A stretch of DNA of 64,000 bases from a virus, in IMG/VR virus record IMGVR_UViG_3300021961_000050, positions 24,225 to 88,224 of that record, one strand, 5' to 3'. Under the pieces are notes generated by a model, which did not search any database, was not told the origin of the DNA, and saw nothing but the letters and a program-made list of their open reading frames with translations. Position numbers and translations under genes: made by a program. Shown here piece by piece: positions 9,371 through 45,209 of this stretch; the stretch's first letter is position 1; every line of letters starts with the position of its first letter.

Positions 9371-9387
9371 TGGATAGGTAAACATCA

Positions 9388-29387: not shown

Positions 29388-30141
29388 AGGGGTTCTACTA
29401 TTTGCATCTAATACAGAAACAGTTGACTATGTAAAAATAGCAAATAGATCAGCAAAATTAATAGAACATTTCTTAAACGTACCTGTAACCATAGTATCTA
29501 ATCAAACAACAAGTGCCAATAAAAGATTTTCAATTGACTCAGGCACATTTGAGCAATGGAATAATTTAGATCGTTACATGGCCTATCAGTTAAGTCCCTA
29601 TGATCAAACTTTGTTGTTAGATTCTGACTATCTTGTTCTTGACAAGAATCTGCTGAAACTTTTTGATGTTGTTAATGATTACATCATTCCATTTAATAAC
29701 ATTAACATTGATAATTTGACAATGCCTAAAGACACCATGGGAACACACAGTTTGCCATTTCTTTGGGCTACGATTGTAGCATTTAATAAAACAGACAAAA
29801 CAGAAAAACTATTTGATTTGGTAAAGCGTGTACAAAAGAATTTTAAATATTATACCAAACTTTATAACATTAAAAATACCAATTACAGAAATGACTATGC
29901 CTTCGCCATAGCAGACAATATCATCAACGGATACACACAAGATTGCAGGCATTATCTACCATGGACTATGTTAACCGTGTCAAATAAAATTAAATCAATG
30001 CGAATTGAGGATGGATTAATTAAGATCAAAGAACAAGATAAAGCTCTGGTATCCCCCTTACAAAGCCTTCATATTATGAGCAAACAATGGTTGTTGTCAG
30101 ACGAATGTGAACAATTTATCAATGAGGCCATCAATGGATAG
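29356..30141 (+). CDS. GT-A-fold glycosyltransferase-like protein
   Basis: 261 residues. The pattern fits a small GT-A-type (GT8-like) glycosyltransferase: a nucleotide-binding N-terminal part (GVLLFASNTETVDYVKIA, residues 12-29), then YDQTLLLDSDYLV with a DSD at residues 89-91 that would bind the metal and sugar nucleotide. Later an acceptor-side region with NYRNDYAFAIADNIING. The next gene is a diverged relative with the same layout. Start at 29356 overlaps the previous gene by 32 bases and gives the full N-terminal strand; no better start is visible. Sugar donor and acceptor unknown. Confidence 0.6.
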   Translation: MKKSNELERSRGVLLFASNTETVDYVKIANRSAKLIEHFLNVPVTIVSNQTTSANKRFSIDSGTFEQWNNLDRYMAYQLSPYDQTLLLDSDYLVLDKNLLKLFDVVNDYIIPFNNINIDNLTMPKDTMGTHSLPFLWATIVAFNKTDKTEKLFDLVKRVQKNFKYYTKLYNIKNTNYRNDYAFAIADNIINGYTQDCRHYLPWTMLTVSNKIKSMRIEDGLIKIKEQDKALVSPLQSLHIMSKQWLLSDECEQFINEAING

Positions 30142-30952
30142 ATTTAAACAACAACAGGGTTTTCTAACCATTGCACAAAATACAACGGTTGATTATTTAA
30201 ATTTAGCATATCACCAGGCTAAATCAATAAAACAAACACAAAAGATCAATAATTATGCAGTACTAGTTGATCAAAAGACATTTGAACAAGTCACTGACCT
30301 ACATAGAACAGTGTTTGATTATGTTATTCTGATAGAAAATGATCAAGCAGAAAATGATCTTTGGAAACTGCGTAATGAGTGGCAGGTTTTCAATCTCACA
30401 CCATTTAAAGAAACCATTAAATTAGAAAGTGATTTAGTTTTTACAAGATCTGTTGATCATTGGTGGACTGCGTTAAGATTAAAAGATGTTTGTCTCAGTT
30501 ACCAATGTAAGAATTTTCAAGGACAAACAGTACCCAAATCAAGATACAGAAAATTGTTTTATGATAATGATTTACCAGATGTTTATAACGGTATGATGTA
30601 TTTTCGTTATAGTCAAACTGCGGCAGATTTTTTTAGGACTGCCAGAAAGATCTATGAAGAATGGCCCACAGTTACTAAAAATTTATTGAATTGTTCAGAC
30701 AAAGAACCTACCACTGATGTGGTTTATAGTTTAACAGCAAAACTTTTAGGTAAAGAAAATTTTTACGTTCCAAGTTTAGATTTTTTTAATTTTGTACACA
30801 TGAAACCACAAATACAAAATTGGTCAGATCACCAATGTTGGACAGACTATGTGTTAGTTGAACAAGATAATGCCATGTTAAGAATTAATAACACCAATCA
30901 ATACTATCCTGTTCACTATTATGAAAAGGACCTATTTAATGTCCAAAGCTGA
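30134..30952 (+). CDS. Glycosyltransferase-like protein, paralogue of the previous gene
   Basis: 272 residues from the ATG at 30134, which overlaps the previous stop (ATGGATAG) and has TGAGG upstream; earlier in-frame ATGs would extend deeper into the neighbour. Layout follows the previous gene: QQGFLTIAQNTTVDYLNLAY at residues 7-26, FKETIKLESDLVFTRSVDHW with ESD (98-100) at the place of the DSD, and DLPDVYNGMMYFRYSQTA with a following helix. The first acidic residue is E instead of D. Likely acts on the same glycan or on a peptide-linked sugar; this is inferred from the neighbours only. Confidence 0.55.
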   Translation: MDRFKQQQGFLTIAQNTTVDYLNLAYHQAKSIKQTQKINNYAVLVDQKTFEQVTDLHRTVFDYVILIENDQAENDLWKLRNEWQVFNLTPFKETIKLESDLVFTRSVDHWWTALRLKDVCLSYQCKNFQGQTVPKSRYRKLFYDNDLPDVYNGMMYFRYSQTAADFFRTARKIYEEWPTVTKNLLNCSDKEPTTDVVYSLTAKLLGKENFYVPSLDFFNFVHMKPQIQNWSDHQCWTDYVLVEQDNAMLRINNTNQYYPVHYYEKDLFNVQS

Positions 30953-31304
30953 AGAAGAATTTTTAAAGGCCATGCGGGAATATATTCCGCCATTGGTTAA
31001 ACCTGATGAGTACCGTGCCTATTATGATGAAAATGGTTGGATTATATTCTTTGCGGCTAACCAATTTCCTCCAGAGGGTAATTGGATTAACATTGATAAA
31101 GATCTATATATCACACATAATTGGACTAACCTTAAAGTCATTGACAATGCTATCAAAAAGGTTGAAATTGACACCAGTTTTCGTGTACAATTAATTAAGA
31201 GTGATCATGGATTTAGGACTGTTCAAAATCATGCTGGTTTAATCTTAGAAGAAGACGAGGAATATTCTGATGTAGACTACTATGACATCAGAAAAAACAT
31301 ATAA
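30939..31304 (+). CDS. Hypothetical protein between glycosyltransferase-like genes
   Basis: 121 residues from the ATG at 30939, preceded by AAGGACC; it overlaps the previous gene by 14 bases and its stop shares a base with the next ATG. The protein is acidic with an N-terminal helix (EEEFLKAMREYIPPLV), a beta region (GWIIFFAANQFPPEGNWINI) and a C-terminal acidic patch (LEEDEEYSDVDYYD). No family recognised. The tight coupling on both sides suggests it works with the flanking glycosyltransferase-like proteins. Confidence 0.6.
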   Translation: MSKAEEEFLKAMREYIPPLVKPDEYRAYYDENGWIIFFAANQFPPEGNWINIDKDLYITHNWTNLKVIDNAIKKVEIDTSFRVQLIKSDHGFRTVQNHAGLILEEDEEYSDVDYYDIRKNI

Positions 31305-32197
31305 TGACACAAATCATTGACATCGCAGATTTAGACTGCGTTTATCTCAGTTATGATGAGCCCAAAAAGGAAGAGTTTTGGATTAAAATTCAAAATATGG
31401 TACCTTGGGCAAAACGTGTAGATGGAGTAAAAGGTTCAGATGCCGCACACAAAGCCGCGGCCAATGCCAGTGACACTGATCGTTTTATACTGATAGATGG
31501 TGATAACTTGCCTGACGCTAACTTTTTTAATCTACAGTTAACTTTGGATGATTCTAATAGAGATTCAGTATTTCGTTGGCGAGCAAAAAATGCAATAAAC
31601 GGACTACAATATGGCAATGGAGGATTAAGTTGTTGGACCAAAGAGTTTATCTATAACATGCGTACACATGAAAACACAGATGGTAAGGAAGAAAATGATG
31701 TAGAGTTTTGTTTTTATCCTAACTATTGGGCCATGCACGACTGTTATTCAACTACATACCCCAACCAGACTCCATTCCAAGCATGGCGAGCAGGATTCCG
31801 TGAAGGTGTTAAAATGAGTCTAAACAGAGGACGTAAGCCTACGGTGGAAGAATTTAAACAGCAGGTTCATGCACGTAACTATGATCATTTATGTATTTGG
31901 CAGACAGTAGGGGCAGACGTTGACAATGGATTTTATTCTATCTATGGTGCCAGATTAGGCACACATCTAACCATGTTAGAAGATTGGAATTATCAGTTAG
32001 TACAGGACTTTGATGAGTTAGCTTTGATGTGGCCTACTTTTCAAGATGCCACGCCTGATCATTGTAAGAATCTAGGAGAAAGTCTACGTACCTGTTTGGG
32101 ATTAGACATAGTAGACATGGATCCAGAAGAAAGCAAATTTTTTAAACATCATTACAAAAGTAACTTTCATAATAAAGGTATAATGCTACGTGAGTAA
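31304..32197 (+). CDS. GT-A-like glycosyltransferase domain protein
   Basis: 297 residues. DCVYLSYDEPKKEEFWIKI (11-29) is a Rossmann-type first strand, and RFILIDGDNLPDANFF carries a DxD-like DGDN at 65-68. Then AINGLQYGNGGLSCWTKEF and TPFQAWRAGFREGVKMSLNR. The same block order occurs in the C-terminal half of the protein encoded at 45210-46535, so the two are related. Such proteins are common in marine phage genomes and are usually annotated as hypothetical or as glycosyltransferases. The ATG overlaps the previous TAA by one base. Confidence 0.55.
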   Translation: MTQIIDIADLDCVYLSYDEPKKEEFWIKIQNMVPWAKRVDGVKGSDAAHKAAANASDTDRFILIDGDNLPDANFFNLQLTLDDSNRDSVFRWRAKNAINGLQYGNGGLSCWTKEFIYNMRTHENTDGKEENDVEFCFYPNYWAMHDCYSTTYPNQTPFQAWRAGFREGVKMSLNRGRKPTVEEFKQQVHARNYDHLCIWQTVGADVDNGFYSIYGARLGTHLTMLEDWNYQLVQDFDELALMWPTFQDATPDHCKNLGESLRTCLGLDIVDMDPEESKFFKHHYKSNFHNKGIMLRE

Positions 32198-33035
32198 GCC
32201 TATATTACCTTTTCTTGAAACTATGATTACACAGGTTTGTAATATCAGCTGTCTAGGTTGTACAAACTACAGTGATCTGACACACCAAGGATACGTTAGT
32301 TGGCAACAGGGTAAAGAATGGTTAGAGCCATGGCTAAGCAGGATAGATATTCCTGACTTTGGCATCATGGGAGGTGAGCCTTTGATTAATCCTGAAGTTG
32401 AGCATTGGATCTTAGGTATCAGACAGTTAATGCCTAAGACACAGATAAGATTTACTACTAATGCTTTGTTGTTAGAAAAGAAATGGCATCTAGTAGATCT
32501 AATGTCAGAACTTGGTAATTGTGTACTTAAAATAACAGTGCATGAAAACAATCCTGTGATTGAACAAACTATAGAAAAGATATTTAACAGTTATGATTGG
32601 AAACCTGTTACTGAGTATGGCATTGATAGATATGTCACTGATAAAGATTTTAAGTTTCAAATTAATAGACCAAAGACCTTTATTAAATCTTACAAAAATA
32701 ATTATGCTAACATGATGCCATATTCAAGTGACCCTGTAAAGGCATTTGAAATATGCTGTCAAAAAAATTGCCCTTTACTTTACCAAGGACGTATCTATAA
32801 ATGTAGCACTAGTGGGCTATTGAAGGAAACTTTAGAAAGATTTGGTAATCCAAATTTTGAACAGTGGAAAGATTATGTAACTGATGGTATTGGGTTTGAT
32901 TGTACCAATTCTGAACTAGCAACATTTATAAACAACTTTGAAAAACCTGAGCAGATCTGTAGAATGTGCCCTACTGTAGATGATTCTGCTACTATAGATC
33001 ATTATGCTACAGTAACAAGGGGAAAATATGCTTAG
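32190..33035 (+). CDS. Radical SAM protein, C-terminal SPASM-like type
   Basis: 281 residues; GTG start at 32190, inside the end of the previous gene. The radical SAM cluster motif CNISCLGC (C17, C21, C24) is near the N-terminus and GIMGGEPLINP (GGEP at 61-64) binds the SAM methionine. Unlike the five enzymes further on, its extra cysteines lie C-terminally (EICCQKNCPLLYQGRIYKC, then ICRMCP), the normal place of a SPASM/twitch auxiliary cluster. Enzymes of this type modify peptides or small molecules by hydrogen abstraction. The substrate is not visible; glycosyltransferase-like genes flank it. Confidence 0.82.
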   Translation: MSKPILPFLETMITQVCNISCLGCTNYSDLTHQGYVSWQQGKEWLEPWLSRIDIPDFGIMGGEPLINPEVEHWILGIRQLMPKTQIRFTTNALLLEKKWHLVDLMSELGNCVLKITVHENNPVIEQTIEKIFNSYDWKPVTEYGIDRYVTDKDFKFQINRPKTFIKSYKNNYANMMPYSSDPVKAFEICCQKNCPLLYQGRIYKCSTSGLLKETLERFGNPNFEQWKDYVTDGIGFDCTNSELATFINNFEKPEQICRMCPTVDDSATIDHYATVTRGKYA

Positions 33036-34005
33036 TCTAGCATTAAGAGATAATCTTCCCTGGGATCAAGATTTAGTTTGGACGTATCTTTACCAACAAT
33101 TAGAATCAGATATGCCTATCACAATAGATATTTGTCCTGAGGCTTGTTGTCTAAGATCTGCTGGTGTTTATGATTTGCTTGACAAATTTTGTGTTACTGT
33201 TGGATACAATAAAACCATTACAATTAAAACTGCTAATATGATCGAGTATCATTCAATTTACAAAATAGAACGGAACGCAGGTAGTTGGTATGAACTTCCT
33301 TTACTACAACAATGGTTGAAAGATAATCCAATTATATATACAACTACTCCTTCAAAAATGTTTGGATGCTTTAACAGTAGAAATCACTGGTCAAGACTTT
33401 GGTTGTCAACAATCTTATACAATTACTATAAAGAAAAATCTTTATTAACCTACCACTATGATGGTACCGTTATAAATTTTAACTACGATCTCTATATAGG
33501 TATTGACGATTTGATTAAAAGAGACTGTGAGCAAATTACACAGGCCTACAACTTTTTACAAAACTGTCCGTTGACATTAGATCAGATAAATGAATATCCT
33601 ATACAGCATCCTGCTAATATGTCATTGTTAAAATTTTATCAAGATCTATTTGTTGATATTGTATCTGAAACAAATGTTGCAGGGAATAGTTTTCTAGTTA
33701 CTGAAAAAACCTGGCGTTCAATTATATCTAAAAGACCATTTATTGTGATGTCAAATCAGGGATTCTTACACCATTTAAAAAAATTAGGATTTAAAACATT
33801 TGATTTTTATTGGTCAGAAGAGTATGATCAAAACTCTGATAAAAATAGAATAAAACATATTATTGATTTATTAGATCAACTGTCTAAACTAACATTGGTC
33901 CAAGTTGAAGAAATGTTGAAAGACATGGATGATATTTTAGAACACAATCTATCAGTGTTTAACAGTTTGTCTTTTGGTAGACTCAATGAGATTTTCAATG
34001 GATAG
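33028..34005 (+). CDS. Glycosyltransferase-like protein (GT10/exostosin-type C-terminus)
   Basis: 325 residues; ATG at 33028 overlaps the previous gene. Residues about 205-268 (YQDLFVDIVSETN, FLVTEKTWRSIISKRPFIV, FLHHLKKLGFKTFDFYWSEE) form a block that I associate with nucleotide-sugar-binding C-terminal domains in the fucosyltransferase GT10 and exostosin-like range, widespread in marine phages and bacteria. The N-terminal 200 residues show no known motif. It is followed by an SGNH hydrolase overlapping by eight bases. A role as a sugar transferase is likely but the donor is not known. Confidence 0.55.
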   Translation: MLSLALRDNLPWDQDLVWTYLYQQLESDMPITIDICPEACCLRSAGVYDLLDKFCVTVGYNKTITIKTANMIEYHSIYKIERNAGSWYELPLLQQWLKDNPIIYTTTPSKMFGCFNSRNHWSRLWLSTILYNYYKEKSLLTYHYDGTVINFNYDLYIGIDDLIKRDCEQITQAYNFLQNCPLTLDQINEYPIQHPANMSLLKFYQDLFVDIVSETNVAGNSFLVTEKTWRSIISKRPFIVMSNQGFLHHLKKLGFKTFDFYWSEEYDQNSDKNRIKHIIDLLDQLSKLTLVQVEEMLKDMDDILEHNLSVFNSLSFGRLNEIFNG

Positions 34006-34744
34006 ACTGTTTACCTTTGGTTGTAGTTTTACAAAATATTGTTGGCCAACTTGGGCTGACATCTTAGCACAATCAGCTGAGCATTATGAAAACTGGGCAA
34101 CTCCTGGTGGAGGCAATCAATACATTTTTAACAGTTTGATAGAATGTCATAAACGAAATAGTCTGACTGCCAACGACACCGTAATTATAATGTGGACCAG
34201 TATCAGTCGTGAAGATAGATATATTAGAGACAAAGGATGGTTAACACCTGGTAGTATCTTCAATCAAACAGACTATGATAAAAATTTTGTAAAAAATCTA
34301 GCAGATCCATATGGTTATTTGATTAGAGATCTAGCAATCATATCAGCTACACGCATGATATTAGATCAAATTGGATGCCAATGGCACTTTTTATCAATGG
34401 TACCTATAGAATATCATGATGACAGTACATATTTTAAGAAAGATCTAAAGATTACAAAAGAAATTAAAGATTTATATCAGATAGAACTTGATCTGATTAA
34501 ACCTAGTGTGTTTGACACAGTGTTTAATGGGGATTGGTCCAGCAGAAAACATCTAAAACCACAGGTTGATGATAATCACCCTACGCCTGGTGAACATTTA
34601 ATTTACTTAAATACAATACTGCCTCAATATAATATTAGTAATGACACAGTTAATTTGGTTAAGTTGAGCGACCAAATTGTATTAGACAATCTGCCATTTG
34701 ATTGGCAGGGTTGGAAATTAAATCAATTAGGAATGAGATTCTAA
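33998..34744 (+). CDS. SGNH/GDSL-type hydrolase-like protein
   Basis: 248 residues from the ATG at 33998, chosen because it places the nucleophile motif near the N-terminus (LFTFGCSFTKY) and overlaps the previous stop by only eight bases. Block GGGNQYIFNSL supplies the glycine/asparagine oxyanion signature (block III type), TVIIMWTSISREDRY follows, and DNHPTPGEHL near residue 190 gives the expected D-x-H pair. The family removes or transfers acyl groups, often acetyl on sugars. Two similar but diverged proteins occur at 42648 and 62084. Confidence 0.7.
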   Translation: MDRLFTFGCSFTKYCWPTWADILAQSAEHYENWATPGGGNQYIFNSLIECHKRNSLTANDTVIIMWTSISREDRYIRDKGWLTPGSIFNQTDYDKNFVKNLADPYGYLIRDLAIISATRMILDQIGCQWHFLSMVPIEYHDDSTYFKKDLKITKEIKDLYQIELDLIKPSVFDTVFNGDWSSRKHLKPQVDDNHPTPGEHLIYLNTILPQYNISNDTVNLVKLSDQIVLDNLPFDWQGWKLNQLGMRF

Positions 34745-36138
34745 TGAGTGAAAAATCAAAATTTATGGCTTCCGCAGAGGATATGAAAGATCGTTTAGGA
34801 ACGGCTCTCTGTTTGGCTAAATGGCAACAGGTCAGTCTACATCTTACCACAGGCATGACCAACTCATGCTATCATCCACCATTACACGAAATTGATCCTA
34901 GTGTGATTGAAATTAAACCAGCGGCCTTGCATAATACAGAACATAAAAAACAACAGCGTAAAAAAATGTTAGCAGGTGATCGACCCAAGGAGTGTAACTA
35001 CTGCTGGCACATGGAGGATGCTGGACATTTAAGTGATCGTCATTATCGCTCAGGTGAACCATGGGCTTTAGAACACTTTGACTCTATTGTCAATAGTCCA
35101 TGGGACCAAGATGCTACTCCCAGTTATGTAGAAGTTAACTTTAATCATGCCTGTCAAATGGCCTGTAGTTATTGTTCACCACAGTATTCAACAGAATGGG
35201 GTAAAGACATAGAACGCTGGGGTGCTTACCCCACGTCAACACCACATAACGCACCTGAACATTTTCAAGGAAGACGCAAGCCTATACCTAACAGAGAACA
35301 TAATCCCTATGTAGAAGCATTTTGGAAATGGTGGCCTGAATTATACGGATCATTGAAACATTTTCGTATGACAGGTGGCGAGCCCTTAATGGATAAGAAT
35401 ACATACAAAGTTTTTGATTATATTCTAACTTTACCTAAAAAAGATCTGCACGTTGATGTAACATCAAACTTTTCAGTAGAACCTAAACTGTTTAATCAAT
35501 ACATTAACAAAGTCAAAGAACTCTGTACAGATGAAAAGATTGAACACTTTATGCAGTATGTAAGTATAGACACAGGTATACCTAATCATGCTGAATACAT
35601 CAGACACGGACTCCAATGGCAAAGATTTGAAACATATATTCATCAGTACTTAACCAGAGTACCTAATAGAAACAGTTTAACTTTTATTGTTACTCTAAAT
35701 AATTTAAGTATACTAGGTCTACAAAGATTGCTTGAAAATATTTTAGAATATCGTAAACTATACAGTGAAAACTATCAACGCATTTGGTTTGATACTCCAG
35801 TACTACGTACACCAAATTGGCAGAGTCTACAGATATTACCACCAACGTATAGTAAGATATTAGAAAAAACCATTCAATGGATGAAACTTCATCGCTTAGA
35901 AGAAGGATCTAATAATTTTGTTGGATTTAAAGATTATGAAATTCAAAGATTAGAAAGAGATCTTACTTGGATGCAACGTGGTAAAAAACTCACTAAAGAC
36001 TATCTACATAAACAAAGAGCAGACTTCTATAGATTCTTTAATGAATATGACAAACGTAGAAACATTAGTTTTGAAGATACCTTTCCACAAATGAAAGATT
36101 TTTGGCAGGAGTGTAAATGGCATGCAGAAAATTCATGA
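34744..36138 (+). CDS. Radical SAM enzyme with N-terminal SPASM-like module (array member 1)
   Basis: 464 residues; start taken at the ATG overlapping the previous stop (TAATG at 34742-34746), because an upstream in-frame ATG at 34702 would add 14 residues inside the neighbour. Cysteines C23, C42, C84 and C87 form an auxiliary module before the radical SAM motif CQMACSYC (C137, C141, C144); MTGGEPLMDK is at 209-218. The N-terminal signature LAKW..., GMTNSCYHP, ECNYCW is shared with the gene at 36282, pointing to tandem duplication. A long C-terminal helical region ends with DFYRFFNEYDKRR. Such twitch/SPASM-type enzymes bind extra iron-sulfur clusters. Substrate unknown. Confidence 0.82.
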   Translation: MSEKSKFMASAEDMKDRLGTALCLAKWQQVSLHLTTGMTNSCYHPPLHEIDPSVIEIKPAALHNTEHKKQQRKKMLAGDRPKECNYCWHMEDAGHLSDRHYRSGEPWALEHFDSIVNSPWDQDATPSYVEVNFNHACQMACSYCSPQYSTEWGKDIERWGAYPTSTPHNAPEHFQGRRKPIPNREHNPYVEAFWKWWPELYGSLKHFRMTGGEPLMDKNTYKVFDYILTLPKKDLHVDVTSNFSVEPKLFNQYINKVKELCTDEKIEHFMQYVSIDTGIPNHAEYIRHGLQWQRFETYIHQYLTRVPNRNSLTFIVTLNNLSILGLQRLLENILEYRKLYSENYQRIWFDTPVLRTPNWQSLQILPPTYSKILEKTIQWMKLHRLEEGSNNFVGFKDYEIQRLERDLTWMQRGKKLTKDYLHKQRADFYRFFNEYDKRRNISFEDTFPQMKDFWQECKWHAENS

Positions 36139-36277
36139 CAATACCTGCCCAGCATTTTTTAATGACGCTACAATAGATCCTTCTGGTTCTTATAGTCCTT
36201 GTACTGCTTTAGGCGGTGGAGCATTTAAATTTCCTAATAAAACATTTAAAGAATTTAGTAAACTTTTAGATATTTAA
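36122..36277 (+). CDS. 51-residue orphan of the N-terminal SPASM-like module
   Basis: Short frame from the ATG at 36122 to TAA at 36277, overlapping the end of the previous gene by 17 bases and stopping four bases before the next ATG. Residues 9-27 (CPAFFNDATIDPSGSYSPC) match the N-terminal pattern of the neighbouring radical SAM proteins (C-x-x-P-W then D-G-x-x-x-P-C), and KTFKEFSKLL matches the following helix. It ends before the CxxC and the radical SAM core. It is either a remnant of a deleted radical SAM gene or a stand-alone mini-domain. A peptide substrate of the neighbouring enzymes is a further, weaker possibility. GGAGTG lies upstream of the ATG. Confidence 0.5.
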   Translation: MQKIHDNTCPAFFNDATIDPSGSYSPCTALGGGAFKFPNKTFKEFSKLLDI

Positions 36278-36281
36278 GAGA

Positions 36282-37628
36282 ATGCCAAAATTAGCCAACG
36301 AAACAGATTTAGAATATAAACGCAGAGTTATAGATATCAAGTCAGAATCATTCTGTGGAGCCAAATGGTATAACGCTACCATATGGTTAGGATCAGGCAT
36401 GACTACCAGTTGTCATCATCCCTTACCACATGCCATTGATGTTAAACAAATAGAATTTAATCCCAAGGCCATACACAACACTGTTGAAAAGAAAGAGCAA
36501 CGCAGACAGATGCAGGTGGGAGAAAGACCAGCAGGCTGTGAATACTGTTGGAAAATTGAGGACATGGGCACTGATAAGATATCAGACCGTGTAGATAAAA
36601 CCGTAATTTATACAGATGGAGAATTAGATGAAGCGTTCCAAAAAGATTACAGAGAAGACGTCAACCTACGAACTTTGGAAATTGCTTTTGATCGCACTTG
36701 CCAGCTGGCCTGTAGTTACTGCAATCCTGCTTTTTCCAGTACTTGGGCTAGAGATATCAAGCGGCAAGGCCCATATAACGGACTCATTAGTGATGGTCGT
36801 AATCATTTCACACATACTCATACTAGCAGTCAACTTTTTAGCATTAACGATCACAATCCATATATTGACGCATTCTTCAAGTGGTGGGAAACAGACCTCC
36901 ACAAAACACTAACTGAGTTACGTATAACAGGCGGTGAACCCTTGATGTCAGGATATACTTGGCAACTGTTTGATTGGTTTAAGGCAAATAGAGGGCAGTC
37001 AAAGACACGTATTGCTATTAATAGTAATCTAGCATTTGAACAAGATAAAATAGATAGACTGTTAGAAGCCGCAAAAGATGTTGAACTAGACATATACACA
37101 TCATGTGAAGCAACATTTGAACGAGCAGAATATATTCGTGATGGATTAGATTATAACCAATGGTTCAACAATGTTGAATATTTGTTAGAAAGTAAAAAAC
37201 TTAGAGGCCTACATGTGATGTGTACTATCAATAGTTTATGTTTAATCAGTTTGCCTAACTTCCTAAGACATATTATATATCTAAAGAAAAAGTACGGGCA
37301 AGATGCAATTAACTTTACTCTAAATATCCTACGCTTTCCTAGTTTCCAGTCACCATTGGTATTACCTAAAGAGTTTAGACAGGCACAGGCTAATAGACTA
37401 GGTATTGTTTTACACAACTATAGCGAACATTTACACGAGTTTGAACGAAATCACATAGAACGATTAATAGATTATTTAGAACTAGTAGACAAACCACATG
37501 CAGATGCTTTTGAAGAAAAGAAACTGACGCACGATTTTAAACAGTTTTATCAACAATATGACGAACGTAGAGGTAAAAACTTTCAAGAAACGTTTCCTGA
37601 ACTAAAAGATTGGTATAAAACCTTATGA
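36282..37628 (+). CDS. Radical SAM enzyme with N-terminal SPASM-like module (array member 2)
   Basis: 448 residues. The auxiliary cysteines are C25, C44, C86 and C89 (CGAKWYNATIW, TTSCHHPLPHAID, GCEYCWK). The radical SAM motif CQLACSYC gives C140, C144 and C147, and ITGGEPLMSG follows. It is the closest relative of array member 1, sharing the GMT-x-SC-x-HP pattern, which is unlike the P-CC pattern of members 3-5. Its C-terminus (FKQFYQQYDERRGKNFQETFPELKD) also mirrors member 1. The next gene starts inside its stop (ATGAG at 37625). TTAAGAGA before the ATG is a weak ribosome binding site. Confidence 0.82.
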   Translation: MPKLANETDLEYKRRVIDIKSESFCGAKWYNATIWLGSGMTTSCHHPLPHAIDVKQIEFNPKAIHNTVEKKEQRRQMQVGERPAGCEYCWKIEDMGTDKISDRVDKTVIYTDGELDEAFQKDYREDVNLRTLEIAFDRTCQLACSYCNPAFSSTWARDIKRQGPYNGLISDGRNHFTHTHTSSQLFSINDHNPYIDAFFKWWETDLHKTLTELRITGGEPLMSGYTWQLFDWFKANRGQSKTRIAINSNLAFEQDKIDRLLEAAKDVELDIYTSCEATFERAEYIRDGLDYNQWFNNVEYLLESKKLRGLHVMCTINSLCLISLPNFLRHIIYLKKKYGQDAINFTLNILRFPSFQSPLVLPKEFRQAQANRLGIVLHNYSEHLHEFERNHIERLIDYLELVDKPHADAFEEKKLTHDFKQFYQQYDERRGKNFQETFPELKDWYKTL

Positions 37629-38941
37629 GTGATAAAGAAAAAGATTACTATAAAAATTATAACTACAATGATCGTAAGCCTATATATATTAACGATAGCG
37701 AGTTAAGATCTGATCAATTGGAAAGACTAACAGAAAGTAAAGTTTTTTGTTTAATTCCGTGGATTCATTTACATGCTTTTCCAGATGGTCGTGCTTATCC
37801 CTGTTGTCTCAGTGATATGAATCTTCCAATTGGCAATTTAAAAAAAGACACTATGAAAACTGTTTGGAATGGCGACCCTTACAAAAACATGCGTAAAAAT
37901 ATGCTTGAAGAACAACCTTGTAAAGAATGTACCAAATGTTATGAACAAGAGCAAAGTGGTTTTATGAGTATGCGTAATTCAGCCAACAAAAACTTTGGTC
38001 AACATATTGGTTTAGTAGACAACACAAAAGAAGATGGCACCTATGAAGATTTTAAAATTAGATACTACGACATCAGATTTAGTAATTTGTGTAATATGAG
38101 TTGTCGTACTTGTGGTAGTCTCTTTAGTAGTAGTTGGTATAATGAAGAAACTAAATTGTTTGGTCCTAGGAATCATCCACAGATCATGTATGCCGGTCGT
38201 ACTGAAATGGATATGTGGGAGCAGATGCAAGAACATATACCCTATGTAGAGCAAATTTACTTTGCTGGTGGCGAACCATTGATCATGGAAGAACACTATA
38301 GAGTTCTTAAAGAGCTGGTAAGGTTAGAAAGATTTGATGTTAGACTAATTTACAATACAAATTTTAGTAGACTTAATCTTAAAGATGAAGATGTTTTAGA
38401 TTATTGGAGTATGTTTGACAGTGTCAGTGTTGGCGCCAGTTTAGATGCTATGGGTGATCGTGCTGAGTATATTCGTAAAGGTACACGTTGGGATGAAATT
38501 GTTGAAAATAGAAAACGCATGATTGAAAAATGTCCTAAAGTAGATTTTTATATAAGTTCAACAGTGAGTATCTATAACGCATTTCATGTCAGTGATTTTC
38601 ATAGAGAATGGGTTAACCAAGGATTAATACAACCACAAGATTGGAATATTAATATTTTACAATTTTCTGACAGAGATAGAATAGATGTGTTACCAAAAAA
38701 CTATAAATTAGAATTAACTAAAAAAATTACAGACCATATCGCGTGGTTAGAACCACTTGACAAACTTAATAGAGCTACAAACGGTTATAGAAGTATGTTA
38801 AATTTTTTAAATCAAGAAGACAAACAACATCTACTAGCAGAATTTTTTAGAATCAATGATAAAATGGATGTCTATAGAAAAGAAAGATTTGCACAGGTGT
38901 TTCCTGAGTACAAGGATTTAAGAACTTATGTCATTGCCTGA
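37625..38941 (+). CDS. Radical SAM enzyme with N-terminal SPASM-like module (array member 3)
   Basis: 438 residues. The N-terminal module is of the classic form CLIPWIHLHAFPDGRAYPCC (C42, C60, C61), then NLPIGNLKKDTMKTVWNGD and KECTKCYEQE (C102, C105). The radical SAM motif CNMSCRTC is at C156, C160 and C163, and FAGGEPLIMEEHYR follows. The first 35 residues are a polar lysine/asparagine-rich extension. Start overlaps the previous stop by four bases and the end overlaps the next start by 14, so translation is coupled. The enzyme class is clear; the reaction is not. Confidence 0.84.
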   Translation: MSDKEKDYYKNYNYNDRKPIYINDSELRSDQLERLTESKVFCLIPWIHLHAFPDGRAYPCCLSDMNLPIGNLKKDTMKTVWNGDPYKNMRKNMLEEQPCKECTKCYEQEQSGFMSMRNSANKNFGQHIGLVDNTKEDGTYEDFKIRYYDIRFSNLCNMSCRTCGSLFSSSWYNEETKLFGPRNHPQIMYAGRTEMDMWEQMQEHIPYVEQIYFAGGEPLIMEEHYRVLKELVRLERFDVRLIYNTNFSRLNLKDEDVLDYWSMFDSVSVGASLDAMGDRAEYIRKGTRWDEIVENRKRMIEKCPKVDFYISSTVSIYNAFHVSDFHREWVNQGLIQPQDWNINILQFSDRDRIDVLPKNYKLELTKKITDHIAWLEPLDKLNRATNGYRSMLNFLNQEDKQHLLAEFFRINDKMDVYRKERFAQVFPEYKDLRTYVIA

Positions 38942-40127
38942 TAAGATCTGTATGTTACCTTGGATATCAATGGAAACGTCTCCAATTGGTACAGCACGAC
39001 CTTGTTGTCTGGCCACAGATGAAATTACACAGTCTGATGGAGAAAAATTTAATCTTAGAGAACACACTTTAGAAGAAATATACCACAGTGACTATATGAA
39101 AGATCTTAGACAGCAGTTCTTAGATGGTAAACAACCTAAGACATGCCAACGTTGTTGGAGTGAAGAAGCCGCTGGTCGCACATCAAAGCGTATGAACAGT
39201 CGCATTCGTCTCAAAGAGTATTACAATCAAATTAATTGGACAGATACTAATCCTGATCAACTATGGTTCCTTGATCTTAAACTAGGTAACATCTGTAATT
39301 TAAAATGTCGTATTTGCGGATCATGGTCAAGTTCAAAATGGGCTAAAGAAGAAATAGACTATGTACCTGATCTTAAAGATCGTAAAGAGCACCTTGCTTA
39401 TAAATTTTTACAGGCGGGTAGTTGGCCAAGAGAGAATCCAGACTTTTGGCTAAACATGAATACCCTATTACCTAATATCAAATACTTAGAGTTTACTGGC
39501 GGCGAGCCATTTCTAATACAACAGCACTTTGACTTTTTAAAAACGGCTGTAAGAACAGGACACGCAGAACATATTGAAATACATTACAATACCAACGGCA
39601 CACAGTTTCCAGAAGATAGAGATCTATGGAAAGAGTTTAAACATGTTGAAATAGCATTTTCAATTGACAACACTGAACAGCGTTTTGAATATGAACGTTA
39701 TGGTGCAGATTGGAATGAAGTGCAGAATAATATTAAACGATTTAATGACATGCGTGGACCTAAACTGAGCACACAACTCTGTACCACAATGAATATTCAA
39801 AATGTCTATTATCTACCTGAAATTTGTGATTGGATAGATACACAAACATTTGACCATGTCTACTTTAACATGTTGCATGATCCATGGCATATGAACATAA
39901 CACACATGACAGACCAAGCACAGAATTTAGTCATTGATAGACTTTCATCACATGCTTTTAACATCAAATATGTCAATGAAATTCAAAACATTATAAATTT
40001 TATTAAAAATGGTAATGGTAGTACCGGTATACCTTTTTGTACACAAATGAAACAGACAGATCAATACCGCAATCAAAGTTTCTTAGAGACACATCCAGAA
40101 ATAGCAAAGGCCATGGGTTATGAGTGA
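38928..40127 (+). CDS. Radical SAM enzyme with N-terminal SPASM-like module (array member 4)
   Basis: 399 residues, the shortest of the array. CMLPWISMETSPIGTARPCC supplies C8, C26 and C27; TCQRCW gives C73 and C76; the radical SAM motif CNLKCRIC is at C123, C127 and C130, followed by LEFTGGEPFLIQQHF. The C-terminus ends with YRNQSFLETHPEIAKAMGYE, an ending of the same kind as member 3. Both ends overlap neighbouring genes (14 and 8 bases). Members 3, 4 and 5 share the P-CC pattern but are well diverged from one another, which argues for different substrates or different steps rather than recent copies. Confidence 0.84.
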   Translation: MSLPDKICMLPWISMETSPIGTARPCCLATDEITQSDGEKFNLREHTLEEIYHSDYMKDLRQQFLDGKQPKTCQRCWSEEAAGRTSKRMNSRIRLKEYYNQINWTDTNPDQLWFLDLKLGNICNLKCRICGSWSSSKWAKEEIDYVPDLKDRKEHLAYKFLQAGSWPRENPDFWLNMNTLLPNIKYLEFTGGEPFLIQQHFDFLKTAVRTGHAEHIEIHYNTNGTQFPEDRDLWKEFKHVEIAFSIDNTEQRFEYERYGADWNEVQNNIKRFNDMRGPKLSTQLCTTMNIQNVYYLPEICDWIDTQTFDHVYFNMLHDPWHMNITHMTDQAQNLVIDRLSSHAFNIKYVNEIQNIINFIKNGNGSTGIPFCTQMKQTDQYRNQSFLETHPEIAKAMGYE

Positions 40128-41505
40128 TGACAAATATCTAATAACCACTCGTCGTGATAGTGAAATGAGTGTGAGCATATATAATACTGTTTATGACCCT
40201 AAAACAATGCCTAAACCTGTTGGGTTATGTATGGCTCCTTGGACTCATACATATCTAAACCCACAAACTGAGCGTAGAATGTGTTGCGCCAGCCGTGAAT
40301 CTGCACAGAACTTTGAACAGTACATAGATACAAAAGCAGGAACTGGTAAGTATATTCCCATCACACTAGAAGAGCATTGGAATGGTGAACACATGAAGAG
40401 TGTACGCAGACGCATGATGCGTGGCGAACGACTGCCTGAATGTGAAGTATGCAATGATAAATTACTAAACACTGACGTTTACAGAAGTTATTTTGAAAGA
40501 CTCTTTGGTGATAAGTATTTACGTATATGGGACACTACAGATGATACAGGCTATACCACAATGAAGCCTGTAAGTTGGGACTACCGTTTCAGCAATCTTT
40601 GTAATTTTAAGTGTCGCATGTGTGGTGATATGTTGTCAAGTGCTTGGGAGTCAGAGCAGAGGCAACATAACATGATAGACTGGTCAAATCCTAAAAATAA
40701 TTGGATGCTTCCAGAAATAAAAGAACAGATAGAACTGTTCCAGTCATCTCAAATTGAAAAAGAGTTCTCAGACGCCGTTGAGTCTCATCAAGTTGAAGAA
40801 GTATATTGGGTTGGTGGTGAACCTCTAATGTACGATCAACATTGGAGATACATGAAACGTATCGTTGACCTAGGAGATGGCAAAAATGTTTACGCTAGAT
40901 ACAACACAAATCTTAGTCGCATCAACTATCGCGGTATCAATCTCTATAATGATATTCTATCTGGGCTACGTGATTGGCAAATCTGTGCAAGCCTTGATGG
41001 TACAGGACAAGTTGGAGAGTATATCCGAACAGGTCTTAGCTATCAAACGTGGCTTGAGAACTTTAAAGCAGGTCTTGCACGATCTACACACCGCCGTCAA
41101 ATGAGAATAGACTTCACACTTACCCTACCAGGTATGTTTGAAGTTAAAAATATAGATAATCTAGCAGTGATGCTAGATGTGGACTTGTTAAGTAAGGTGG
41201 TGTTTAGTTTTTCATCAGACATCATCTTAAGTCCACTTGCACTTCCAAAAAAACTATTACATGCTAAGATTGATGATCTATTATCTAATACACTAACCAA
41301 TCGTTCTCTCATTGACACATTAGAACAATTAAAATCTAGACCAACTTTTGAAGAACAATGGCCCAATGAGTACAAGTATGGTCTTGCAAAAGGTAAGGCT
41401 CGTGTGTTACAATTAGAGAGTATACGTAAAGATAAATTTACCTTACGTGATATATTGTCACATGATAAAGATATATTAGAATGGTGGGATTCAATTGGAA
41501 ATTAA
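40120..41505 (+). CDS. Radical SAM enzyme with N-terminal SPASM-like module (array member 5)
   Basis: 461 residues. CMAPWTHTYLNPQTERRMCC gives C37, C55 and C56; ECEVCNDK gives C108 and C111; the core motif CNFKCRMC is at C161, C165 and C168; VYWVGGEPLMYDQHW follows. The N-terminal extension of about 35 residues includes VYDPKTMPKPVG. Start overlaps the previous gene by eight bases (ATGAGTGA). A 352-residue protein of unknown function starts inside its end. Spacing between the CC and CxxC elements is longer than in member 4, with GTGKYIPITLEEHWNGEHM between them. Confidence 0.84.
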   Translation: MSDDKYLITTRRDSEMSVSIYNTVYDPKTMPKPVGLCMAPWTHTYLNPQTERRMCCASRESAQNFEQYIDTKAGTGKYIPITLEEHWNGEHMKSVRRRMMRGERLPECEVCNDKLLNTDVYRSYFERLFGDKYLRIWDTTDDTGYTTMKPVSWDYRFSNLCNFKCRMCGDMLSSAWESEQRQHNMIDWSNPKNNWMLPEIKEQIELFQSSQIEKEFSDAVESHQVEEVYWVGGEPLMYDQHWRYMKRIVDLGDGKNVYARYNTNLSRINYRGINLYNDILSGLRDWQICASLDGTGQVGEYIRTGLSYQTWLENFKAGLARSTHRRQMRIDFTLTLPGMFEVKNIDNLAVMLDVDLLSKVVFSFSSDIILSPLALPKKLLHAKIDDLLSNTLTNRSLIDTLEQLKSRPTFEEQWPNEYKYGLAKGKARVLQLESIRKDKFTLRDILSHDKDILEWWDSIGN

Positions 41506-42553
41506 AGTTACTCTACGTAATCCGTTGGACAAACAAGATTTTTTGGATTATTATATAGTTCCAAATAATAGTCAACTGGCCTGTGATTGGTTTGGTGCTC
41601 TACAGCAACTATTAAAAAATGGTAATCTATTAGAAAAGAACTTTTGTTTTTTAGGATTTCCTAACTCAGCAAGAACAGTTGACTATCTATGTAAAGAACT
41701 TAATTGGGCAGTTGATCAAATAAATTCTGCATTTGCTGATTATAATATTTTAGAAATTTTTACCAGTGATGCAGTGTCTAATAATCAAAACTTGCTTAAC
41801 CATTTACATAATCATTTTGAACAGTTACAAGGTACGGTAGAAAATTTAAGCAGTTACTATAAACGTGCTGACTACGATACCAAATATGCTATCAGACAAT
41901 TAAACAATCTTTGTCATGAACTAGAAAGCCTATTACTAAGTCAACGCAAACAACGTTCAGATCCAGAATGGGTTAGACCTAGTCAGATAACCACGTTCTT
42001 ACACGCACAGAGATACGAATTAACAGATGAGCATCGTCAGGGATTTGTTGCCAATGGATATGATCGTAAGTTTAGTCATGTCTATATGCACTGGACGCAG
42101 ATAGGAAAGACCTTGTTTGAAGTGTTCCGTGATGAACATGCACCTACACTAACAGACACAGTCTGTGAAGCAATTACTCATTTGCGTTATTATTCAGGTG
42201 AGTTTGATGTAGAATGGGGTAACACTGTGACCTATGGTGGTAACAATCCATGGCACAATTTAGAACAGGATAAATTTATCCAATGGCTAATAGATAATGG
42301 ATTTGATCCTAAGGATACAAAATTAAGTTTAGGATATTTGCCTCTTGGGCATATAGATTTGATGAAATCATTTGGCACTGACGATCCTATCAGAGTAAGA
42401 GAAATATTGGGTCGTTATCTTGATATCTATAGTATAGAGGCGGGTGAATGCTCTAATGTATTTGACTATTGTTGGGCTGACAGTGATCATAAACAGCGTC
42501 AAATTGAATCAATGAAACCTGGATATGATTACAGTAGCAAGGAGAATGTATGA
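41495..42553 (+). CDS. Protein of unknown function following the radical SAM array
   Basis: 352 residues from a TTG at 41495; an in-frame stop at 41477-41479 rules out an upstream ATG, and GGTGGG lies at a suitable distance. No family recognised. The middle part is helical (NLLNHLHNHFEQLQGTVENL, residues about 110-160). Later regions have YDRKFSHVYMHWTQIGKTLFEV and VEWGNTVTYGGNNPWHN, then KLSLGYLPLGHIDL. Histidine and tyrosine/tryptophan-rich patches look like an enzyme or binding protein rather than a structural one. Its overlap with the last array member suggests a shared role, possibly substrate handling. Confidence 0.6.
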   Translation: MEIKVTLRNPLDKQDFLDYYIVPNNSQLACDWFGALQQLLKNGNLLEKNFCFLGFPNSARTVDYLCKELNWAVDQINSAFADYNILEIFTSDAVSNNQNLLNHLHNHFEQLQGTVENLSSYYKRADYDTKYAIRQLNNLCHELESLLLSQRKQRSDPEWVRPSQITTFLHAQRYELTDEHRQGFVANGYDRKFSHVYMHWTQIGKTLFEVFRDEHAPTLTDTVCEAITHLRYYSGEFDVEWGNTVTYGGNNPWHNLEQDKFIQWLIDNGFDPKDTKLSLGYLPLGHIDLMKSFGTDDPIRVREILGRYLDIYSIEAGECSNVFDYCWADSDHKQRQIESMKPGYDYSSKENV

Positions 42554-42651
42554 AGTGGTTAAAGAAAATAATTGAAAGAATTAAATTAGAAATCAGATAC
42601 AGAAAACGTCTGAGAGAACTTAAAAAGAAAGATCCATTTATCTATAAATGA
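42550..42651 (+). CDS. Small basic helical peptide (33 residues)
   Basis: ATG at 42550 overlaps the previous stop by four bases, with AAGGAGAA upstream, and the stop overlaps the next ATG by four. The 33 residues are almost one amphipathic basic helix (MKWLKKIIERIKLEI, then RYRKRLRELKKK) ending in DPFIYK. Very small basic proteins ending this way occur in marine T4-like phages as far as I recall. Overlaps on both sides and a good ribosome binding site make it a real gene in spite of its size. Function unknown; the charge suggests RNA or membrane binding. Confidence 0.6.
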   Translation: MKWLKKIIERIKLEIRYRKRLRELKKKDPFIYK

Positions 42652-43298
42652 AAATACTTACACTAGGCGATAGTTTTACCAAAGGCAGTGAATTAGCAGA
42701 TCCTGTTAGTTCTGCTTGGCCATCTGTGCTGGCTAATATTGGAGAGCACAATGTGACCAATGAAGCGGAATACGGTGGTAGTAATGATATGATGTTTCGT
42801 AAAGCCATTGAACTAACAGCAGTGGATCATTACGATTTAATCATCATTGCTTGGACTGAAGCACATAGAATGGAAGTCTATCTTAATGAACCTAGAGACA
42901 TGGAATATAGATCATACACTGTAGGTCCGTTGAGTATAAATCATAACTGGGGTAATCTAAAATGGACCAAAGAATATTATGCTGAACATTATAATGAAGA
43001 ATATTTTTTAAGAAAGTGGCTAACACAGGTTATAGCTCTACAGGGATATTTTAAAAGTAGAGACCAAAAATATATTTTTTTAAATGCTTTTGGAAACCAA
43101 CAGGCTTTACCAAAATATAATTTAACAACTAAACAATCTGTTGATTCTAAATATTTTTTAGGTTGGCCCAATGAAGGAATAGTAGAATGGGTTTATGGAT
43201 TACCCAAAGGCAAATATGGGCATCCATTAGAACAGGCACACATATTAATTGCAGAGAAAATCAATGAAAGTATTAGGAATTTCAGCTGGGTTTCATGA
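42648..43298 (+). CDS. SGNH/GDSL hydrolase-like protein
   Basis: 216 residues. ILTLGDSFTKGSEL at the N-terminus holds the GDSF nucleophile (serine 9), EAEYGGSNDMMFRKAI the G-x-N block, LIIIAWTEAHRMEVY the central strand, and YGHPLEQAHILIAEKI a C-terminal histidine block. This family of small hydrolases is frequent in marine phages and may act on acylated sugars or peptides. It is one of three such genes in the window. The ATG overlaps the small basic peptide and the end overlaps the carbamoyltransferase start by 35 bases. Confidence 0.7.
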   Translation: MKILTLGDSFTKGSELADPVSSAWPSVLANIGEHNVTNEAEYGGSNDMMFRKAIELTAVDHYDLIIIAWTEAHRMEVYLNEPRDMEYRSYTVGPLSINHNWGNLKWTKEYYAEHYNEEYFLRKWLTQVIALQGYFKSRDQKYIFLNAFGNQQALPKYNLTTKQSVDSKYFLGWPNEGIVEWVYGLPKGKYGHPLEQAHILIAEKINESIRNFSWVS

Positions 43299-44748
43299 TG
43301 CTGGAATAGCATTCATTGACAATGGTAACATTGTCTATGCTGGACACAGTGAAAGATACAGCAAGATCAAACATGATAGCGAGTTAAATCCGCAAATTCT
43401 TGCTGACTGTATCAGTAGATGTGGGATTCCTGATGTTATTGCCTACTATGAGAAACCATGGATTAAAAAGACCAGACAGTTATATGCAGGTCAATGGAAT
43501 GATCTTTGGCACGGTTGGTCAGTTCGCAACATGATTAACAAAGTTGATCCAACTAACGAATTACATCGTGTACCAATTAAAACATATAATCATCACAAAT
43601 CACATGCGGCCGCTGGCTTCCAAACTTCTAAATTTAGAGATGCTACGGTGGTTGTGATAGATGCCATTGGTGAGTGGGACACTATGTCTGTATGGAACGC
43701 ATACTATGATCGTAATGGTCGTGCCTGTTATGAAAAGTTATGGAGCCAACGCTATCCACATTCGATAGGTTTGATGTATTCAGCATTTACTAAAGAGGTT
43801 GGGCTCAGACCTTTAGATGAAGAATACATTCTAATGGGTATGGCCGCCTATGGTAATGATCTAGGTACTGCTTCGTTTAAACATGTTCTAATTGATGATG
43901 AAAATGCCCTAACATTCAGACATAATCTACATATTGGTTTACCTAACAGTGGAGAATATGGAGAACCGTTTGATATAGCCGCCAGTGCCCAAAAACTGAC
44001 AGAATATCTGATCAACTCAGTGGTATCCTACGCAAAGAAAAACGGTCGCAGTAATAATTTAGTCTACATGGGTGGAGTTGCTCTTAACTGTTTGGCTAAT
44101 AGGGACCTAGGAAGATTCTTTGATAATATTTGGATCATGCCTAATCCAGGCGATTGTGGTAGCTCACTGGGTGCGGCCGCACTGGCGTGGGGACATAAAG
44201 TAAATTGGCAAGATGCTTATCTAGGTTATGATATCAAACAGCCTTATCCAATAACAGAACTATTAAGTGAACTAGTGGAAAGGAAAATAGTAGGAGTGGC
44301 CAACGGTCCTGCAGAGTTTGGCCCTAGGGCATTAGGCAATAGATCATTACTAGCAGATCCAAGAGGACCAGAGATAAAAGATCAGGTAAATGAAATTAAA
44401 CAGAGACAAAAGTTCCGTCCATTTGCTCCTGTTATCTTAGAAGAATATGTTGATGAATATTTTTCCATGCCCAATGGTTGGGAAACTAGTCCTTATATGC
44501 AGACCACTGCTATTTGTAAAAATCTAAAAGAATTTCCTGCTATTGTACATGCAGATGGTACTAGCCGTGTACAAACAGTAGGTCCAGAATGCAGAAGTGG
44601 AATTAGACAATTACTAGAACAATGGTTTATGTGGACTGGCTGTCCTATGTTGTTAAATACTAGTCTAAACATTCGCGGTCAACCAATGGTCAATGACAGA
44701 CAAGATGCGGAAAGATTTGAAAAATTATATGGAATAAGGGTATTATGA
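43264..44748 (+). CDS. NodU/CmcH/TobZ-family carbamoyltransferase
   Basis: 494 residues from the ATG at 43264, chosen because MKVLGISAGFHDAGIAFIDN is the family N-terminus. NHHKSHAAAGF (H110, H111, H114) is the metal/carbamoyl phosphate site, TVVVIDAIGEWDTMS (D133) the ATP-binding acidic site, YMGGVALNCLANR (269-280) the ASKHA nucleotide loop, and ANGPAEFGPRALGNRSLLAD the conserved C-terminal YrdC-like domain motif with GPRALG. All key motifs are intact. The family transfers a carbamoyl group from carbamoyl phosphate through carbamoyl-AMP to a hydroxyl, usually on a sugar or antibiotic scaffold. It fits an island of glycan-tailoring enzymes. It is followed by an overlapping P-loop kinase. Confidence 0.93.
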   Translation: MKVLGISAGFHDAGIAFIDNGNIVYAGHSERYSKIKHDSELNPQILADCISRCGIPDVIAYYEKPWIKKTRQLYAGQWNDLWHGWSVRNMINKVDPTNELHRVPIKTYNHHKSHAAAGFQTSKFRDATVVVIDAIGEWDTMSVWNAYYDRNGRACYEKLWSQRYPHSIGLMYSAFTKEVGLRPLDEEYILMGMAAYGNDLGTASFKHVLIDDENALTFRHNLHIGLPNSGEYGEPFDIAASAQKLTEYLINSVVSYAKKNGRSNNLVYMGGVALNCLANRDLGRFFDNIWIMPNPGDCGSSLGAAALAWGHKVNWQDAYLGYDIKQPYPITELLSELVERKIVGVANGPAEFGPRALGNRSLLADPRGPEIKDQVNEIKQRQKFRPFAPVILEEYVDEYFSMPNGWETSPYMQTTAICKNLKEFPAIVHADGTSRVQTVGPECRSGIRQLLEQWFMWTGCPMLLNTSLNIRGQPMVNDRQDAERFEKLYGIRVL

Positions 44749-45209
44749 AAATATTAGTTATGGGATTACCAGGGTCAGGAAAATCAACTCTGTCAGAAAA
44801 ATTACTCAACGAAATTGGTAAAACACAAACTGTAGATTGGATCAATGCTGACGACCTTAGAGAGAAAAACAATGATTGGGACTTTAGTGAAGAAGGTAGA
44901 AAACGTCAAGCACGTAGAATGAGAGATTTAGCAGACGAAGGCACAAGAAATCATATGGTCTGTATTGCTGATTTTGTTTGTCCTACTAAAGAATTGCGGA
45001 ACATATACAATGCTGATTTTGTCATTTGGATGGATACTATCAAGGAAGGTCGTTTTGAAGATACTAATCGTATATTTGAACCACCCACAGTAGATGAATA
45101 TGATGTTAAAATATCATCATTTGAAGAAGCTGATCGTTGGTCAACCACTGCCGCTGATTTGATTGACATACTATTAACTTCTGATCCGTCGGAATGGACA
45201 GGTGGCTAG
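44745..45209 (+). CDS. P-loop kinase, adenylylsulfate kinase (CysC)-like
   Basis: 154 residues. Walker A GLPGSGKST at residues 7-15; INADDLREKNNDWDFSEEGR follows the pattern of the APS kinase region where D-x-D-x-x-R contacts substrate; MVCIADFVCPTKELRN corresponds to the second-strand region. Family members phosphorylate APS to PAPS, the sulfate donor; marine phages often carry such genes, and the actual substrate may be another small molecule. It overlaps the carbamoyltransferase by four bases and the next gene starts directly after its stop. At 154 residues it is somewhat shorter than typical CysC (about 200). Confidence 0.65.
   Translation: MKILVMGLPGSGKSTLSEKLLNEIGKTQTVDWINADDLREKNNDWDFSEEGRKRQARRMRDLADEGTRNHMVCIADFVCPTKELRNIYNADFVIWMDTIKEGRFEDTNRIFEPPTVDEYDVKISSFEEADRWSTTAADLIDILLTSDPSEWTGG

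Follow-up and report, generated by a model that had tools for sequence, protein, structure and literature searches.

The window analysed here is a stretch of 64,000 nucleotides that forms part of the 88,224-base virus record IMGVR_UViG_3300021961_000050 (positions 24,225 to 88,224). It carries five successive genes for radical S-adenosylmethionine (rSAM) enzymes with an N-terminal auxiliary cysteine module, designated R1 to R5, which very probably act jointly in one pathway, their catalysis being predicted. A pathway is favoured because the order of the five genes and the cysteines of their iron-sulfur (Fe-S) sites are conserved together across viral contigs. A plausible reading, though one that we place somewhat short of probable, is that the five form a single multistep pathway within a tail-fibre and host-recognition cluster and tailor a tail-fibre glycan in a lineage of large, mostly uncultivated T4-like phages. 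The five genes are as follows, with bit scores against the NCBIfam model NF033640.

34744-36138, plus strand: R1, N-terminal-twitch rSAM, GMTxSCxHP version (306 bits; start at ATG 34744, with TTG 34702 also possible)
36282-37628, plus strand: R2, N-terminal-twitch rSAM (298 bits; 61 orthologs with conserved cysteines)
37625-38941, plus strand: R3, N-terminal-twitch rSAM (402 bits)
38928-40127, plus strand: R4, N-terminal-twitch rSAM (350 bits)
40120-41505, plus strand: R5, N-terminal-twitch rSAM (281 bits)

The five plus-strand open reading frames (ORFs) were confirmed where a preliminary description of this DNA had placed them. The overlaps that it gave between neighbouring genes hold for the junctions from R2 to R5 (4, 14 and 8 bases); between R1 and R2 there is instead a gap of 143 bases, which holds an orphan ORF. 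NF033640 (N_Twi_rSAM, "twitch domain-containing radical SAM protein") has a curated cut-off of 170 bits, which was exceeded by all five members at 281-402 bits over model positions 1-4 to 388-398. Pfam placed SPASM at residues 8-77 of R4 and Radical_SAM after it at residues 119-302, which together with the invariant cysteines of the five classes confirmed that the auxiliary module lies N-terminal to the core. This arrangement is no novelty in itself, since it is the defining trait of the named family.

The CxxxCxxC motif was invariant in the R1-R5 classes, and the predicted fold of R4 matched rSAM enzymes. The four auxiliary and three core cysteines were 98-100% conserved per class (49-83 aligned sequences each); in R1, C23, C42, C84 and C87 and the core C137xxxC141xxC144 were 100% kept in 83 orthologs. 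Given at least 49 aligned orthologs per class and invariant Fe-S cysteines, chance was excluded as the source of the array. Identity between pairs of R1-R5 ranged from 21 to 32% and the proteins fell into two groups, R1/R2 and R3/R4/R5, which bears out the earlier judgement that they are too diverged to be simple copies. The two versions of the cysteine module follow the same grouping, except that R5 has RMCC and not the P-CC that had been assigned to it. In the explanation that we favour, R1-R5 are paralogs of ancient origin, all of them N-terminal-twitch rSAM enzymes with predicted enzymatic activity.

In order to examine gene order, related loci were collected from IMG/VR in scans seeded with R4 (30 loci), R1 (527 loci) and R5 (211 loci), with at most 80 loci kept per scan. 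The rSAM ORFs of the R4- and R1-seeded sets were placed in a tree, from which classes and gene orders were read. The pattern that those seeds suggested was then put to the test in the R5-seeded set, some of whose contigs also occur in the other two. The R5-seeded set comprised 61 non-redundant loci, of which 54 had at least 7.5 kb of upstream sequence. R1-R2-R3-R4-R5 were all present, in the same order, in 53 of these 54 loci. Automatic class labels recovered all five in 43 loci, and a recheck against the window proteins added 10 of the other 11: four were R3-R4 fusions, five had an R3 ortholog that had been labelled R4, and in one (L160) R1 was cut at the contig end. The single exception (L156) holds R5 and downstream genes only. 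R3 and R4 were fused at full length in one subgroup (L015, L020, L122, L127, L134 and L139).

Distance matrices of R1-R5 and of two families of neighbouring genes described below (c1 and c2) were correlated across 39 non-redundant loci (rho 0.62-0.86, and 0.64-0.86 between R1-R5 and the two neighbouring families), compared with a permuted maximum of 0.35 for R1-R5. Shared phage ancestry alone also yields such correlation, and it is therefore taken as a sign of co-inheritance and not of interaction. These data bear on whether the genes could instead be auxiliary metabolic genes or selfish paralogs that have gathered loosely in a variable island and share no pathway. The region has been described as hypervariable (PMC7029224), extra members between R1 and R5 have been gained and lost, and relatives of R1 with 44-47% identity occur without R2-R5 (L103, L107, L108 and L110-L119, several of these contigs ending soon after R1). 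Against this stand the order and cysteines kept in 53 of 54 loci, the R3-R4 fusion and the co-variation; loose accumulation is largely refuted by the conservation of order and appears very improbable. The preliminary description had expected a multistep pathway rather than a single auxiliary gene, and had named independent distribution or freely varying cysteines as grounds for abandoning it. The fixed order, the cysteine conservation, the fusion and the co-variation with glycosyltransferases support that expectation, with the qualification that R1 relatives are also found on their own.

The gap between R1 and R2 contains one further feature.

36122-36277, plus strand: orphan 51-aa ORF, truncated N-terminal twitch module (phmmer, E 1e-5)

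The orphan aligns to N-terminal residues 6-41 of N-terminal-twitch (N-Twi) rSAMs in two related loci (L194 and L158). Because of this match, it was taken as the remnant of an additional rSAM gene rather than a new gene, and its candidacy as a peptide precursor was rejected. An extra member between R1 and R2 is frequent in relatives.

The R4 structure was modelled with AlphaFold2 (predicted local distance difference test score, pLDDT, 95.3) and compared with known structures using Foldseek. The top matches were the rSAM enzymes CteB, SkfB and BlsE, at template modelling (TM) scores of about 0.36 (about 0.3-0.4), and viperin folds were also among the matches. Since these low-scoring matches are all rSAM enzymes, the fold does not decide between a peptide and a sugar substrate. 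Nucleotide or cofactor chemistry on small-molecule substrates (viperin-like, haem-related as in AhbC/AhbD, or MoaA-like) would agree with the viperin folds and with weak profile matches to viperin, AhbC and MoaA. These matches lie far below the cut-offs, mainly over the common core, and none has the N-terminal twitch layout, so that chemistry of this kind seems extremely improbable. Viperin (NF038283) was rejected at 16-30 bits against a cut-off of 180; AhbC (TIGR04546) at 20 bits for R4 against a cut-off of 650, the other four having no match; and MoaA as below its cut-off.

The genes around the array keep a conserved order across loci. Those recognised in the window are listed below (GT8 and GT2, glycosyltransferase families 8 and 2).

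25136-26524 and 26567-28033, plus strand: c3, two tail-fibre-like proteins (72 loci; 26567-28033 matches PHROG tail fiber phrog_19602, E 1e-14)
28046-28987, plus strand: c5, putative virion protein with RYFFNAGG motif, candidate glycan acceptor (89 loci)
29073-29387, plus strand: c7, small protein after the fibre genes (85 loci)
29356-30141, plus strand: c1a, GT8 (glycogenin-like) glycosyltransferase (same alignment, A1, as c1b)
30107-30952, plus strand: c1b, GT8 (glycogenin-like) glycosyltransferase (profile against PDB glycogenin, best E 1e-7)
30921-31304, plus strand: c8, small conserved protein (66 loci)
31304-32197, plus strand: c2, weakly GT2-like conserved protein (108 loci)
32190-33035, plus strand: ordinary rSAM without N-terminal twitch (NF033640 match restricted to profile positions 113-238)
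33028-34005, plus strand: c4, putative glycosyltransferase with TEKTxxPI...FI motif (60 loci; assigned by eye only)
33974-34744, plus strand: 256-aa ORF between c4 and R1 (no Pfam or PHROG match)
41495-42553, plus strand: c9, conserved gene after R5 (54 loci; no Pfam match over cut-off)
42648-43298, plus strand: c6, SGNH/GDSL-like protein (DUF6071; Pfam PF19547 45 bits, PF13472 weak; 56 loci)
43267-44748, plus strand: c11, carbamoyltransferase of NodU/CmcH type (Pfam PF16861, PF02543; 46 loci)
44745-45209, plus strand: c13, APS-kinase-like P-loop kinase (Pfam PF01583, 42 bits)
45210-46535, plus strand: N-terminally extended paralog of c2, putative glycosyltransferase (same cluster as 31304-32197)
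46513-47643, minus strand: DegT/DnrJ/EryC1 sugar aminotransferase (Pfam PF01041, 271 bits)
47606-48592, minus strand: NAD-dependent sugar epimerase/dehydratase (Pfam PF01370, 146 bits)

R1 lies directly downstream of c2 in 87 loci. Two of 17 c2 members matched Pfam GT2 models at E < 0.01 and a PDB profile search with c2 returned nothing; c4 gave no Pfam or PDB profile match. The c5 alignment contained no conserved cysteine. No conserved family of short ORFs (60-160 aa) was found inside the arrays, at most 3 loci sharing one, and a cluster for ribosomally synthesised and post-translationally modified peptides (RiPPs) was rejected, as no precursor ORF is conserved in the arrays. The c9 model (pLDDT 86.3) had no Foldseek match with E < 1 against the PDB, and c9 as a known enzyme was rejected for want of either a sequence or a fold match there. 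Its conserved His/Glu/Asp motifs (HxxFExLQ, CHExE and EVFxDE), considered with the model, suggest a metal site and possibly a new enzyme fold. By tblastn, c2, c5 and c9 had no relative among 50,697 deposited phages.

The full record also carries gp5-, gp25- and gp6-type baseplate genes, a late sigma factor gene and SbcC/SbcD-type nuclease genes, by which it was assigned to a T4-like phage. In the window, a 4515-aa giant structural ORF (9388-22935) is related to virion structural protein phrog_10938. The motif ATAAATA, which we take to be the T4-type late promoter motif, was located as follows.

26533-26539, plus strand: ATAAATA upstream of the second fibre gene, putative late promoter of T4 type

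Across loci, 59% of c3 genes and 12% of c5 genes had ATAAATA in the 80 nt before them, compared with 0 of 551 R1-R5 genes; the figure for random windows was 0.5%. After 26533, the next occurrence in the window does not come before 46.5 kb. Since the motif precedes fibre genes and never R1-R5, the array is probably transcribed late, together with the tail-fibre genes. In the whole window, where about 18.6 copies of ATAAATA would be expected on each strand, there are 6 on the plus strand and 2 on the minus strand, mostly just upstream of genes; the motif looks to be selected against elsewhere.

Among the deposited phages, matches to R4 were confined to Vibrio phages K566 and K567 and one fragment from a single cell. 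In K566, N-Twi rSAM genes are interleaved with a GT8 gene and a weak GT4-like gene, and none of the neighbour families of the window is present. A GTDB scan seeded with R3 orthologs gave 79 loci, so that the cellular sample is biased toward R3. A Pfam census of 145 neighbours of the cellular copies found no dominant function, and multi-copy loci alone, chosen after this census, were read in detail. Three Bacteroidota loci (L218, L222 and L224) carry three N-Twi rSAMs each. A Wzt_C-type ABC exporter, a glycosyltransferase group 1/UbiA/GDSL protein, a PhyH oxygenase and a carbamoyltransferase are encoded near those of L224, and a WelO5-type oxygenase near those of L222 and L218. In a Bacteriovoracaceae locus (L207; metagenome-assembled genome (MAG) contig, 6040-18036), eight N-Twi rSAM genes lie close together on an apparent bacterial chromosome, beside genes for an Obg GTPase and an NTP-transferase/HAD protein, and group with R1/R2 (support 0.97) and R5 (1.0) in the tree. 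The array is not phage-only, related arrays being present on apparent Bdellovibrionota chromosomes. Separately, L199-L203 and L275 resemble phage contigs of the same lineage binned into MAGs labelled Pelagibacter, Verrucomicrobia, Betaproteobacteria, Flavobacterium and Rickettsiales; L199 and L275 have fibre/GT8/c2 neighbours, and L200-L203 were judged by rSAM classes alone.

Under the proposed glycan-tailoring pathway, R1-R5 would be made late in infection from the tail-fibre transcript. The two glycogenin-like GT8 proteins and the other glycosyltransferases would assemble a glycan, and the five rSAMs would alter its sugars through hydrogen abstraction, by oxidation, epimerisation, deoxygenation or cross-linking. 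The SGNH, carbamoyltransferase and kinase-type proteins would complete the glycan, whose likeliest acceptor would be the tail-fibre proteins encoded just upstream. That the substrate is a sugar is somewhat probable, because N-Twi arrays accompany glycan genes in three unrelated settings, the search for a precursor peptide found none, and c5 lacks conserved cysteines. If so, a location of the glycan on the virion rather than on the host surface is slightly favoured, because the array is linked to fibre genes and to the late motif. A further extension, in which this rSAM assembly line, supplied by phage Fe-S scaffolds, would remodel the fibre glycan into sugars that the host does not make, with fibre chemistry helping to set adsorption or protecting the tail, is more doubtful.

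Several points weigh against tailoring of a fibre glycan. To our knowledge, no reaction has been demonstrated for an NF033640 enzyme; SPASM/twitch rSAMs of known function mostly modify peptides, and sactipeptide maturases are among the PDB structures closest in fold to R4. The array of eight in L207 is without every phage neighbour family, and single cellular N-Twi copies are mostly in mixed contexts. The assignment of c2 as a glycosyltransferase is weak and that of c4 has no profile support, and the DegT and epimerase genes lie on the opposite strand to the array.

The prevalence of peptide substrates among characterised relatives, with CteB and SkfB as best Foldseek matches of R4 and the array directly linked to fibre genes, would also suit enzymes that modify the fibre polypeptides themselves (RiPP-like C-C or ether cross-links, epimerised residues or oxidised side chains), the glycosyltransferases acting separately. 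We consider this quite unlikely, given the lack of a small precursor gene in the arrays and of a conserved cysteine in c5. In addition, the divergence of c5 outpaces that of the enzymes (mean p-distance 0.62 versus 0.32-0.46), with which it shows the weakest correlation (0.46-0.63), and the cellular and Vibrio-phage relatives accompany glycan genes, not fibres.

The same cassette could otherwise act on a host-surface glycan: during infection, the phage would remodel the lipopolysaccharide O-chain or the capsule, for instance to keep other phages out. Such a role was proposed for the GT8 genes of a homologous pelagimyophage cluster (PMC7029224), and the surroundings of bacterial relative L224 are those of a surface-glycan cluster of Wzt type. 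The phage cluster, however, showed no recognisable gene for a flippase, a membrane-anchored transferase or a lipid carrier. It is also tied to fibre genes, and its probable late transcription would be too late for early exclusion; action on the host surface is thus considered unlikely.

Beyond the array, the record encodes nine rSAMs in total: R1-R5, a sixth full N_Twi member (R6), a divergent protein with an N-terminal SPASM module, and two ordinary rSAMs (at 32190 in the window and at 16267-17370 of the record, G000). Two of them are located as follows.

G000:C1 20824-22110 (equal to L008:1824-3110; 20878-21876 within), outside the window, minus strand: R6, over the NF033640 cut-off
53093-54085, plus strand: divergent N-terminal-SPASM rSAM, with TATAAATA 13 bases ahead of its start

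R6 has 42% identity to R4 and an N-terminal extension of about 80 aa, and is flanked by genes for an SbcD-type nuclease and a gp55-type late sigma factor. The gene at 53093-54085 is inserted between genes for a VWA/DUF2201 metallopeptidase-like protein (51739-53004, minus strand) and a MoxR-type AAA protein (54096-55205, minus strand).

Fe-S supply was surveyed in 12 records, namely 11 long relatives (133-374 kb) and the present record. N_Twi members over the cut-off were found in all 12, with up to 12 in one record and six in this one. IscU-type scaffolds were encoded in six records and A-type Fe-S carriers in six, with at least one of the two types in eight of the 12. All eight positives were long relatives; neither type was found in the present record, which is a fragment.

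The family is widespread, as the 527 R1 loci and 211 R5 loci in IMG/VR indicate, and its members are probably often mistaken for metabolic genes. In a survey of the Baltic Sea, 261 "ahbD" auxiliary metabolic genes were reported, with a function that the survey itself called speculative (PMC9301287); many of these may be N_Twi rSAM members misnamed through profile annotation. If virion glycan tailoring is correct, radical chemistry would take part in building a phage particle, the Fe-S assembly genes that such phages carry would be explained, and the cassette would offer new enzymes for modifying sugars. With its fixed order, it lends itself to a direct test of this reading, with five genes, an adjacent putative acceptor and, in Vibrio phage K566, an isolated though distant relative.

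Among known systems, NF033640 covers R1-R5 and R6, with an N-terminal twitch followed by the CxxxCxxC core; its name states no function, and the ordered cassette, the fusion, the position in a late unit and the linkage to glycosyltransferases are not part of the family. The RiPP maturases CteB and SkfB share the rSAM core and an auxiliary Fe-S module. Unlike them, R1-R5 carry a single auxiliary module of four cysteines at the N terminus and have no gene for a precursor peptide, and the structural similarity is low (TM about 0.3-0.4). In mycobacteriophages, phage glycosyltransferases decorate virion proteins (Freeman 2023, cited in PMC11256854), as proposed here; the passages of PMC11256854 consulted mention no rSAM tailoring. 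The T4-like environmental virus TARA_ERS488813_N000010 resembles the present phages in combining many rSAM genes (12 in number) with Fe-S assembly genes (an A-type Fe-S carrier). These genes are read as Fe-S metabolism in the passages of PMC5332604 consulted, which discuss no array, gene order or substrate. The pelagimyophage host recognition cluster (PMC7029224) likewise combines tail fibres, GT8s and rSAM cassettes in T4-like phages, and the window resembles it in having adjacent fibre and GT8 genes, with T4-like baseplate genes in the record; the rSAM cassettes are mentioned there only as variable add-ons, whereas here the five classes form a conserved core. In the open-access literature searched, no description of the ordered R1-R5 cassette and no report of rSAM sugar chemistry on phage particles was found. 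Thus rSAM genes in such phages (PMC5332604, PMC7029224) and the N-Twi family were already known, and the ordered five-class cassette appears to be new.

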